A stretch of DNA of 37,535 bases, from the NCBI GenBank assembly GCA_017529425.1, contig JAFXNQ010000051.1, positions 1 to 37,535 on the forward strand. Reading direction: 5' to 3'. The position numbers and the translations under genes are program-made. This document shows positions 23,678 to 29,179 of this stretch, in pieces. Source of the DNA: Bacteroidales bacterium. GTDB lineage: Bacteria; Bacteroidota; Bacteroidia; Bacteroidales; UBA932. Under the pieces are notes generated by a model, which was given only the letters and a program-made list of their open reading frames with translations, had not been told where the DNA came from and did not search any database. Numbering within the stretch: position 1 is the first letter of the stretch; each line of letters starts with the position of its first letter.

Positions 23678-23708
23678 CAAAAGTAGGCAAAGAATCGCAT
23701 CTTCACAA
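23678..23708 (-). promoter_or_regulatory. Bacteroidota-type promoter for the barrel-transporter operon
   Basis: Read on the minus strand: TTG (23708-23706), a 20-bp spacer, TACTTTTG (23685-23678). Start near 23671, 40 bases before the ATG. Repeat copy A begins 6 bp upstream of this promoter. Confidence 0.65.
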
Positions 23709-23713
23709 GAAAT

Positions 23714-23963
23714 GCTCGTGGCAGAAGCCTTCGCTTGCAATTCTTTCTGGGCAAAAATCTGCCCTTGAAAGAATTCAAGCTCCGGACTATATCTGCCACT
23801 CGCTCTTCGCCAGCAGTCTAGCCAAAGCGCCACACGGACATTTGAGGCTCCCCGAAATAGCGTGGGCGCACCACCTTCACCTTTTCTAAAGCCTTTGGCG
23901 CGAGCACTGCCGCATGGGACGGGTGGGGTAAAGGCGCACCTCTGCGCTTTAGCGGGACGAGCC
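23714..23963. repeat. ~250-bp structured direct repeat, copy A
   Basis: The first ~128 bp match 24965-25091 with about five differences, and the last ~60 bp match the end of copy B; the middle ~60 bp diverge. A long hairpin spans 23718-23799: GTGGCAGA against TCTGCCAC outside, then CTTG/CAAG, AATTCTTTC/GAAAGAATT and GGGCA/TGCCC inside. Ends GCTCGT and ACGAGC are inverted. No convincing gene lies in it on either strand. It may be a small non-autonomous mobile element or a structured RNA. Confidence 0.75.
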
Positions 23964-24094
23964 AAGGTATTCTAATAAATTATAAATTTGCGTAGTACAG
24001 TCTATTAGCGTTTTATACATGGGACTTGCCACCGAAGTCGTCGCAATAGTCTCAGGCCGCGGAGAGTTACCAGTAGCGTGGTCAATCATATCTC

Positions 24095-24124
24095 TTGCTG
24101 ATTCAGGAAAAAGTAATACCTTTG
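24095..24124 (+). promoter_or_regulatory. Bacteroidota-type promoter for the candidate small RNA
   Basis: TTG (24095-24097), a 19-bp spacer, TACCTTTG (24117-24124): a full consensus match. Predicted start about 24131. Confidence 0.65.
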
Positions 24125-24130
24125 CATCAG

Positions 24131-24268
24131 TTTGATAAGACACGGTATAGAGGGCTGTTCACAGCGTGCAGAAGTCCCCGCCCCAGGAAGGCCCACTTTT
24201 ATAAGTAAACTCTTACCGCGCAAGACTGGGGCAAGCATAGCACCTCGCATTTGTCGAGGTGCTTTTTT
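24131..24268 (+). ncRNA. Candidate structured small RNA, class unassigned
   Basis: A full-consensus promoter and an intrinsic terminator bound ~138 nt with no convincing reading frame on the plus strand. Predicted pairings: CGGTA-t-AGAG near 24144-24153 with CTCTTACCG near 24211-24219; a GCTG-TTCA-CAGC hairpin; an ACTT-TTAT-AAGT hairpin; and GCCCCAG with CTGGGGC beyond the first stem, which would form a pseudoknot. It shows neither the SRP domain IV motif nor the tmRNA tRNA-like ends. The 6S-Flavo family of Bacteroidota is the first class to test. The start is predicted, so the 5' end may shift by a few bases. Confidence 0.55.
24240..24268 (+). terminator. Intrinsic terminator of the candidate small RNA
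   Basis: An 8-bp perfect stem, GCACCTCG (24240-24247) with CGAGGTGC (24255-24262), a 7-base loop, then six T (24263-24268). Plus-strand orientation only, as no T-run follows the stem on the minus strand. Confidence 0.85.
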
Positions 24269-24749
24269 AATCTTTGATGTCAATAGCAGTAATGCAATAC
24301 TGTATCTTGATATGCGTTCGCAGTTTCACGCCAACGGTCAGTTTTACTCTTCCTACGCCCGGGCAATCGTGCTCCATTTCTATCATTGCCTGAAATTTGG
24401 ACTGACTAGTACGTGCCTTTGGCTTTCCTATCCTGACTTTTTTGGCGCATGCTAGTATTCCGTCTAACTGCATCACGGCCAAGGTTGACAAATATGTCTT
24501 TGCGGCATGGCGTGCAGTCTCCGAGATGGATACTTTCCGTATGTTGATGTAGTCTTTCAACTCATTATTATATACTCGCTGCGTTGGGTTAGCTGCTTTC
24601 CACTCTCTGTAAAACTGTAGAATAATGGCTTGTCTTTGTTCTATTTCCGCAGGATTGTTCCCAATAGGGACGTCTTCTTTGTTGATACACATAATACGTT
24701 GATATATAGTTTTTATACTTAGTGGCTTGTCTCGATAATATGCACCCAT
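24267..24749 (-). CDS. Hypothetical protein of unassigned Bacteroidales family
   Basis: About 160 aa from the ATG at 24749; an in-frame TTG at 24776 would add nine residues. No named domain is recognised. Visible features: a QRQAIILQFYREWKAANPT helix, KDYINIRKVSISETARHAAKTY, LSTLAVMQLDGIL, and a C-terminal block VGRVKLTVGVKLRTHIKIQY likely to be beta-rich and basic. I have the impression of similar multi-copy proteins in this order but cannot verify it. Its TAA stop lies inside the T-tract of the opposing small RNA terminator, so the two units are packed end to end between the direct repeats. Confidence 0.6.
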   Translation of the reverse strand: MGAYYRDKPLSIKTIYQRIMCINKEDVPIGNNPAEIEQRQAIILQFYREWKAANPTQRVYNNELKDYINIRKVSISETARHAAKTYLSTLAVMQLDGILACAKKVRIGKPKARTSQSKFQAMIEMEHDCPGVGRVKLTVGVKLRTHIKIQYCITAIDIKD

Positions 24750-24873
24750 AACTGGCTGCACATTCCTGTGTAACAATACGATATTCTGGTGAAGGGAGCC
24801 GCCTCCAGAATGGAGAACTTACCTTGCTCCTGATTTCATTACCGGCCGATTCGGACGACCGCCTTGCTTGATA

Positions 24874-24964: not shown

Positions 24965-25213
24965 GCTCGTGGCAGATGCCTCCGCTTGCAATTCTTTCTG
25001 GGCAAAAATCTGCCCTTGAAAGAATTCAAGCTACGGACTATATCTGCCACTCGCTCTTCGCCAGCAGTCCTGCCAAAGCGCCACACGGACAATTGGTGCT
25101 TCACGAAACCGAGCGGGCACGCCACATCCAAACTTCCTAATGTCCTAGTGACGAGCACCGCCGCATGGGACGGGTGGGGTAAAGGCGCACCTCGGCGCTT
25201 TGGCACGACAGTC
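24965..25213. repeat. ~250-bp structured direct repeat, copy B
   Basis: Same orientation as copy A. A hairpin spans 24969-25050: GTGGCAGAT/ATCTGCCAC, TCCG/CGGA, CTTG/CAAG, AATTCTTTC/GAAAGAATT and GGGCA/TGCCC, with small internal bulges. A second, perfect 11-bp pair, GCCAAAGCGCC (25072-25082) with GGCGCTTTGGC (25194-25204), encloses the rest, including the divergent middle. It ends 13 bp before the mazG-like promoter. No gene is seen in it. Confidence 0.75.
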
Positions 25214-25256: not shown

Positions 25257-25275
25257 AACGGAAATGAAAGAAACA

Positions 25276-25605
25276 ATGAGCGATATCCAAGAGATTCTCG
25301 ATGAATTGAGAAGGTTCAACTCTGAGCGGGATTGGGATCAATTTCACAATGGAAAAGATTTGGCGATTGCACTGTCAATAGAGGCCTCGGAACTGCTTGA
25401 AGCCTTTTTGTGGAAATCGGCAGAAGAAGCCCCGCTGTTAAAGATTAAGGAAGAACTTGCCGACGTCTTGAACTATGCTTTTCAGATGGCGGATAGGTAT
25501 AATCTTGATATTAAGCAAATAATGCTTGATAAACTCGCCAAGAATGCGGCGAAGTATCCCGTAGAGAAAGCAAAAGGCTCAGCAAAGAAGTATAACGAGT
25601 TATAG
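25276..25605 (+). CDS. MazG-like nucleotide pyrophosphohydrolase
   Basis: 109 aa from the ATG at 25276, chosen because the promoter would start transcription at about 25263 and homologues begin near M-x-DI. The all-alpha NTP-PPase fold is shown by E36 and E39 in SIEASELLE and by E60 and D63 in EELADVLNYA, the magnesium-binding ExxE...ExxD set. Such enzymes cleave (d)NTPs to NMP and pyrophosphate; dCTP is a frequent substrate. It is 8 bp before the helicase gene in the same transcript. Pyrophosphohydrolases that deplete nucleotides are used in some anti-phage systems, so a defence role is possible but inferred. Confidence 0.9.
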   Translation: MSDIQEILDELRRFNSERDWDQFHNGKDLAIALSIEASELLEAFLWKSAEEAPLLKIKEELADVLNYAFQMADRYNLDIKQIMLDKLAKNAAKYPVEKAKGSAKKYNEL

Positions 25606-28777: not shown

Positions 28778-29179
28778 ATGAATAAGGTTATCATCATCAT
28801 CGATTGGGTGCCGAACAATTTCAGTGCAGCAGTCGCAAACGGAGAGGTGGCTTGCGTGGCGACAGGTAAAACACTCGAAGATGTCAAGAAGAATATTATG
28901 GGTGCCTTGGCCTTTCATATTGATGGAATCTTGCAGGATGGAGGGATTGTGCCTGTGGAATTCAGTGAAGACTGGGAACCGGTGTATCATATGACCACAA
29001 GAGCTCAGCTCAAGTATGCTGATAAGTACATTGTAAGGAAGTCACTTGCGGAAGAAATTGGTGTGGCGGAGCAGCAGTTGAGCCACTATGCGAATGGGCA
29101 ACGTCATCCCAGGCCAGCAATGCAAAGACGTATCTCAGAAGGAATAAAATCAATCTGTGCTCGTCTGGCGTGTATGTAA
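28778..29179 (+). CDS. hicB: HicB-family antitoxin
   Basis: 133 aa. The N-terminal partial RNase H-like fold (NNFSAAVANGEVACVATGKTLEDVKKNI) is followed by a C-terminal HTH (KSLAEEIGVAEQQLSHYANG). It binds and blocks HicA and represses the shared promoter in known systems. The length is typical of HTH-bearing HicB. Confidence 0.92.
   Translation: MNKVIIIIDWVPNNFSAAVANGEVACVATGKTLEDVKKNIMGALAFHIDGILQDGGIVPVEFSEDWEPVYHMTTRAQLKYADKYIVRKSLAEEIGVAEQQLSHYANGQRHPRPAMQRRISEGIKSICARLACM

Follow-up and report, generated by a model that had tools for sequence, protein, structure and literature searches.

A pseudoknotted small RNA convergent with an LPD3-type protein gene in Bacteroidales: a candidate toxin–antitoxin-like pair

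To our knowledge, RNA antidotes that act on proteins are known mainly for the MazF/Kid-like toxins of type III toxin–antitoxin operons. TxpA/RatA-type toxins, encoded in convergent type I pairs, are small membrane peptides, and their RNA acts through overlap with the mRNA. As defined in PMC5086642, type III systems are operons in which the RNA, in tandem repeats, precedes the toxin gene and is separated from it by a terminator. Here we describe a locus in a 37,535-nucleotide contig of a Bacteroidales bacterium (JAFXNQ010000051.1; this whole stretch is referred to as the window), at which a small RNA converges on a minus-strand gene for an LPD3-type protein. The analysis establishes an RNA family with its fold and conserved promoter box, its convergent linkage to the gene, the matching of RNA classes to protein clades, and the existence of solo RNAs. 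A preliminary description of the window had overlooked the LPD3-type gene, which is the regular partner of the RNA; the RNA is one half of a conserved RNA–protein pair.

This pair is not a type III toxin–antitoxin system, because two defining features fail: the operon layout is rejected by an RNA that converges on the 3′ end of the gene, and the tandem repeats by a single RNA unit per gene as the rule. In the mechanism that we propose it would nevertheless work like one. It shares with ToxIN, CptIN and TenpIN the combination of a small protein with a pseudoknotted RNA, the co-evolution of RNA and protein classes, and a protein suspected here to be RNase-like; it differs in that the convergent RNA has its own promoter box and terminator, is mostly a single unit, and commonly occurs solo. 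No description of an LPD3–RNA pair was found in literature titles and abstracts, a scope that leaves out preprints and subscription papers.

A structured RNA unit and its relatives

The features of the locus are as follows.

24095..24124, + strand: sigma-ABfr-type Bacteroidota promoter box (TTG at 24095-24097, 19-nt spacer, TACCTTTG at 24117-24124), with activity predicted from sequence
24131..24269, + strand: class A small RNA of ~138 nt including the terminator, with inferred ends, matched by models R1 and R3
24141..24220, + strand: helix P1 (24141, 24143-24147 and 24149-24152 with 24210-24218 and 24220)
24153..24193, + strand: helix P2 (outer, 24153-24155 with 24191-24193; inner, 24158-24160 with 24187-24189)
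24195..24206, + strand: hairpin P3 (24195-24198 with 24203-24206)
24176..24231, + strand: pseudoknot crossing P1 (24176-24179 with 24228-24231, plus G24180-U24227)
24239..24269, + strand: intrinsic terminator (stem 24239-24263, then T6), with a T-run that overlaps the stop codon of the gene on the other strand
24267..24692, − strand: LPD3-type protein gene, convergent with the RNA (141 aa from ATG; 169 aa if from TTG at 24776)

The promoter box and the intrinsic terminator proposed in the preliminary description are both present; TAnnTTTG is given as the consensus of the sigma-ABfr −7 element in PMC7366714. The proposed stem of about 9 bp also exists, as nine pairs between 24143-24147 plus 24149-24152 and 24210-24218 with T24148 bulged, and its helices are kept by paired changes in relatives. 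The crossing pair was placed only half correctly. GCCCCAG at 24180-24186 can indeed pair with CTGGGGC at 24226-24232 in the window, and the conserved pseudoknot uses the same 3′ strand, but its 5′ partner is a C-run a few nucleotides upstream. The C-run at 24176-24179 is assigned as the 5′ strand because, in five distinct relatives whose 3′ strand reads GAGG (L057, L036, L116, L030 and L055 at 2207), CCUC occupies this upstream place; the 7-bp register is not the one that these five keep. The preliminary description saw no convincing plus-strand gene between promoter and terminator; an open reading frame at 24132-24455 runs through the RNA and has no Pfam match.

The window sequence taken singly does not rise above chance. 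Its folding energy does not differ significantly from that of shuffled copies (z = −0.86), and a 2.5-kb stretch contains four sites resembling a terminator where 2.0 +/- 1.2 are expected. It is the relatives, rather than such single-sequence statistics, that settle the reality of the RNA, since a covariance model built without the window still finds it. Model R1, which includes the window, matches 24129-24238 with 62.5 bits; model R3, built from 42 of 49 sequences (left out were the window, L029 and L030, as well as four odd members), recovers 24130-24238 with E = 1.1e-7 and gives no second match at E ≤ 1 across the 37.5 kb of the window.

Class A RNAs consist of P1, P2, P3 and a pseudoknot joining a C-run inside P1 to GGGG downstream of P1. 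Across 72 distinct sequences, 81.8% of cells are paired, compared with 28-45% in slid versions of the structure, a difference due in part to the derivation of the structure, with helices placed by hand, from the same sequences. Changes on both sides of a pair occur in 166 cells against 58 +/- 6 in shuffles, and a MAFFT alignment of 49 sequences gives 112 such cells against 41 +/- 5. P1 (helices 1 and 2) is paired in 86.6% and 77.5% of cells, with both-side changes at 9 of 11 pairs; outer P2 (helix 3) is paired throughout (100%), with both-side changes at all three pairs; P3 (helix 6) reaches 77.8%, and the pseudoknot (helix 5), which lies outside the nested-helix model to which the 72-sequence alignment was fitted, 91.3%. 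The fold has two weaker points: inner P2 (helix 4) is paired in just 53.1% of cells, and both-side changes occur at only one of the four pseudoknot pairs. RNAalifold recovers just 6 pairs from the class A alignment, which in our opinion reflects misplacement of the 3′ part by MAFFT. The helices, pseudoknot included, are kept by paired changes among the 72 distinct relatives. The unpaired core is conserved, and so is a stretch that reads GUGCAAAGUCCCCGCC in the consensus. The conserved promoter box and the covariation support a separate, structured small RNA containing a pseudoknot, as the preliminary description would have it, although not a free-standing one, given the overlap of its T-run with the stop codon of the convergent gene.

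Class B RNAs are shorter. In 22 sequences, 98.6% of cells are paired and 60 double changes are observed against 19.4 +/- 4.5, with a number of pair types little above that of shuffles (38 of 500 reach it). Their pseudoknot, GUCA/UGAC, is paired in 100% of cells with changes on one side only, and is for that reason a proposal only. A third short unit type stands beside LPD3 genes in L170, L171 and L181, apparently closed by a single long stem that doubles as terminator, and assorted short units occur at other distant loci (both judged by eye).

No named class accommodates the RNA. Searches of the whole window and of 23700-24700 yielded no gathering-score match of any Rfam 15 family within the RNA, those to rimP, SNORD63, snoTBR7 and RT-2 falling far under their own gathering scores. 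6S-Flavo (RF01685), the first candidate to be considered for exclusion, is rejected: its model finds nothing at gathering score anywhere in the window and, with the limit relaxed to E ≤ 10, nothing in 23700-24700; a whole-genome search for it was uninformative, returning zero matches in the genome of the window and also zero in 14 control genomes. Among 18 relatives searched at E ≤ 0.5 only tRNAs reach their cut-off; a GcvB match overlapping the L023 unit scores 24.6 bits against a cut-off of 42, and 13 further loci give no family identity for the RNA. DNA similarity alone gave no match in phages; across 41 genomes it recovered the window and, apart from that, a single 33-nt match, which lies in L002 and covers the 3′ end of the query.

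The partner protein

The window protein matches Pfam LPD3 (PF18798) with E = 1.2e-4 and 22.7 bits, under the gathering score of 27. Of 58 aligned relatives, 55 match at E ≤ 5 (best 6e-10), and L075 exceeds the cut-off (32.8 bits). Phage LPD3 proteins match the fold of the window-protein model (predicted local distance difference test score 93.3), the best with E = 1.1e-5 overall and 8.2e-5 for one named LPD3. By Pfam in relatives and by fold, this would be the same domain as the LPD3 of polyvalent phage proteins; here, however, it is bacterial, stands alone or behind a helix-turn-helix (HTH)-like part, and has a convergent RNA (beside the phage genes no RNA search was made). In Helicobacter-phage polyvalent proteins, LPD3 is described as co-occurring with PBECR RNase and RelA/SpoT domains (PMC5512222). 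In L060 (345-1523), a frame of 393 aa carries HATPase_c_4 followed by an LPD3 domain. Plasmid and phage collections gave no match to the protein, nor did viral contigs searched with a single protein query.

Structure comparison with two models weakly suggests a RelE/BrnT-like (BECR-type) fold. The second-look rows 1-14 and 1-35 are entries for toxin–antitoxin, contact-dependent inhibition (CDI) and colicin-type ribonuclease proteins, RegB, Cami1 and Txp40, with the exception of the unnamed 2otr; the resemblance to RelE/BrnT-type toxins is weak (low Z) and seen in both models. It extends to strand and helix order, and RelE, BrnT, HigB and YoeB provide the best second-look rows. On the other hand, a sequence search of solved chains returns nothing at E ≤ 10 and there is no strong fold match in the PDB; and, where these toxins have a protein antitoxin, the partner here is an RNA. 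Type III toxins have a MazF/Kid fold, whereas the predicted fold here is closer to RelE/BrnT; no MazF/Kid-like entry stands among the 50 rows listed per model, which does not rule that fold out.

A regulatory role for the pair, with the LPD3 protein as an RNA-binding regulator and the small RNA as its ligand or sponge, would fit the HTH-like N-terminal parts seen, under cut-off, in some long forms. It would also fit L195, where a gene convergent with the RNA retains an HTH part that shares 55-69% identity with its counterpart in long relatives, followed, with no LPD3 between, by a tail alike to L056 in 8 of 9 residues (tail alone E = 0.20). The toxin-like fold rows speak against such a role, as does a patchy spread: among 393 genomes drawn from the order, the protein occurs in 13, namely the window's own and 12 from eight other families. 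We consider the regulatory explanation quite improbable. L195 itself resembles a natural deletion of the LPD3 domain beside a retained RNA.

Linkage, class matching and solo RNAs

Among 398 genomes of the family, the protein is found at 100 places in 76 genomes, class A RNA at 92 places and class B RNA at 70. Both partners are present in 67 genomes, protein only in 9, RNA only in 24 and neither in 298, such that RNA accompanies 67/76 protein-bearing genomes and 24/322 protein-free ones (Fisher p = 3.7e-45, overstated because the genomes are related). The genome-wide RNA counts are lower bounds, since only 9 or 10 candidates were scored per genome. An RNA is paired with the protein at 85 of its 100 places; by our own sorting, the 15 others comprise three at contig ends, ten partial matches, L062 and L074, the last with another short promoter-led unit (by eye). 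Nearly every complete gene has an RNA or RNA-like unit adjoining it, and by this sorting no complete gene with open flanks is without one, although the evidence is weak for L062 and by eye for L074. Of the 60 nearest genomes, nine carry the protein, at 10 places; at all 10 an RNA is found, and downstream of the stop codon at all 10 lies a short promoter-led unit on the opposite strand with shared motifs. That the RNA is an unrelated housekeeping or regulatory RNA adjoining the gene by chance would accommodate the solo RNAs, but in view of this linkage and of the class matching described below it is hardly credible.

The promoter box is conserved. The 99 unique complete genes examined for it derive from 146 rows, by way of 122 that combined a near-complete domain with 160 nt or more of downstream sequence; TAnnTTYG lies on the RNA strand 60-190 nt before the stop codon in 91 of them. 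The opposite strand has it in 13 of 99, and shuffled sequences give a mean of 8.2. By eye, the eight without a box in range include L045 and L047, directly preceded by class B RNA, L056 and L066, preceded by a tRNA gene, and L082, L169 and L175, with a box closer to the stop; L062 has no unit at the gene end and a weak, 30.6-bit R1 match on the 5′ side of the gene. In L056 and L066, class A RNA directly follows the tRNA-like gene (by eye) and lacks its own box, and so may be released by tRNA 3′ processing. Exceptions to one unit per gene are L045 (the same place as L076; 1936-2112) and L047 (1264-1457), where a class A RNA follows immediately on a class B RNA, as though both were transcribed together; G384:C31, with class B then class A RNA and no gene; G331:C2, with two class A units 128 nt apart; and L061, where the 3′ part of the RNA is repeated.

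RNA class follows the protein tree, and the A/B split is clean. On a tree of 99 proteins, the 63 class A and 28 class B genes (91) are separated by one change, and each label against all other genes requires 3 (A) and 2 (B) changes, where shuffled means are 29.3 and 24.6; the dividing branch has a support of only 82/91, and relatedness inflates the result. L071 and L076, to which the pattern had given C, were labelled B by hand, taking all four labels from 8 changes to 6; six genes are labelled other (L062, L074, L169, L175, L176 and L179). Of 17 order-level loci, five match R1 and three match R2 at E ≤ 0.001, which amount to six distinct places (the L167 RNA is the same as that of L135); the other nine (L169, L170, L171, L175, L176, L177, L179, L181 and L183) were judged by eye only. 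The named loci are Bacteroidales or Bacteroidia, including Prevotella, many from rumen or gut, with the exception of L101, labelled Lachnospiraceae. That locus lies on a 3.2-kb contig, encodes a protein near-identical to that of L038 from the window's family, and is probably mis-binned.

Convergent order invites comparison with TxpA/RatA-type pairs and with control by an antisense RNA that base-pairs with the mRNA of the gene. The terminator hairpin on the gene strand has no T-run after it, so that the mRNA could traverse the RNA region. Nevertheless, the RNA fold is kept by covariation, and specificity of leader pairing is absent: native 5′ leaders show no advantage over swapped ones (mean fraction of 0.51 across 91 pairs, with guessed starts and with 5′ leaders, not the mRNA 3′ end, compared). 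Antisense control is accordingly very unlikely.

The association is asymmetric. Of 162 RNA places, 87 (upstream members of tandem RNAs included) converge on an LPD3-type gene within −80 to 300 nt and 75 are without a gene, at least three of these ending at a contig edge (G023:C10, G006:C181 and G289:C5). The 60 nearest genomes hold, by our tally, 21 RNA places: 10 with a gene, 8 without, one with a remnant and two at a contig edge. Many solo RNAs retain promoter box and terminator (L185, L186, L193 and L201 have no clear terminator, and L200 no full box), and the end of the gene is kept at 3 of 29 solo places examined (L148, L191 and L194). The first of these is in the genome of the window itself, a second class A RNA at G000:C13:54522-54627 beside a gene remnant.

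Genomic setting, proposed mechanism and significance

Genes near the pair in the window include the following.

25264..25605, + strand: MazG-like protein (Pfam 1.5e-17), also in L020/L105/L145 and L029/L075
25614..27482, + strand: Schlafen group 3 helicase (Pfam 9.8e-88; PADLOC AbiO 4.6e-20), also in L020/L105/L145, L029/L075 and L117
28564-28776, + strand: HicA toxin gene (Pfam 9.7e-14)
28778-29179, + strand: HicB-like gene (0.0091, under cut-off)

The MazG-like and Schlafen-type helicase genes recur together next to the pair in L020/L105 and L029/L075, and L117 has the helicase as well. In L075 they lie between two pairs, one of class B and one of class A. HicA or Gp49-type genes lie near solo RNAs. 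Direct 245-nt repeats, 86% alike, flank the pair (23714-23958 and 24965-25209), with 16 matches, some partial, in the same genome; similar repeats occur near class B units in L024 and L027 (by eye).

Defence-like neighbours, together with the matching of RNA and protein classes and the conserved unpaired core of the RNA, would suit a ribonucleoprotein effector, in which the RNA is not a restraint but a needed cofactor or sensor that activates the LPD3 protein or aims it against phage. A cofactor would be expected to decay after loss of its protein, yet 75 of 162 RNA places lack the gene and 24 genomes hold RNA only; further, the alignments, although not searched for one specifically, showed no conspicuous variable stretch of a guide-like kind. 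Such an effector is possible but unlikely.

Four observations favor a toxin with an RNA antidote instead: the asymmetric association, the matching of classes, a toxin-like fold and the genomic setting. We think it probable that the locus encodes a toxin–antitoxin-like pair, in which a toxin would be restrained by a separately promoted, pseudoknotted RNA. The pairing of gene and RNA is observed; the transcription, binding, inhibition, toxicity and phage role of the pair are inferred. The minus-strand gene would give a small RelE/BrnT-like (BECR-type) protein, probably a toxin that cuts or binds RNA. The plus-strand RNA would be made from its own promoter and terminate just short of the gene, and its pseudoknot, with the conserved stretch GUGCAAAGUCCCCGCC, would be bound by the protein such that the active surface is blocked. 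Should the RNA supply stop, for example through phage shutoff of host transcription, the RNA would decay and the protein be freed.

There is about an even chance that these loci represent a new Bacteroidales toxin–antitoxin or anti-phage module, in which pseudoknotted RNAs, each with its own promoter, would restrain proteins of RelE/BrnT fold. At least two modelled classes of RNA (and a third by eye) would then exist, every class paired with its own protein clade, and solo RNAs would persist as antidotes, and hence as immunity, after loss of the toxin gene. If the reading is true, pairing a RelE/BrnT-like protein with a pseudoknot transcribed separately would represent a second and independent way of building an RNA antidote, the LPD3 domain of phage polyvalent proteins would gain a testable function, and two RNA families would be added to those in Rfam 15. 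The naturally matched classes and the solo RNAs make both specificity and immunity directly testable.
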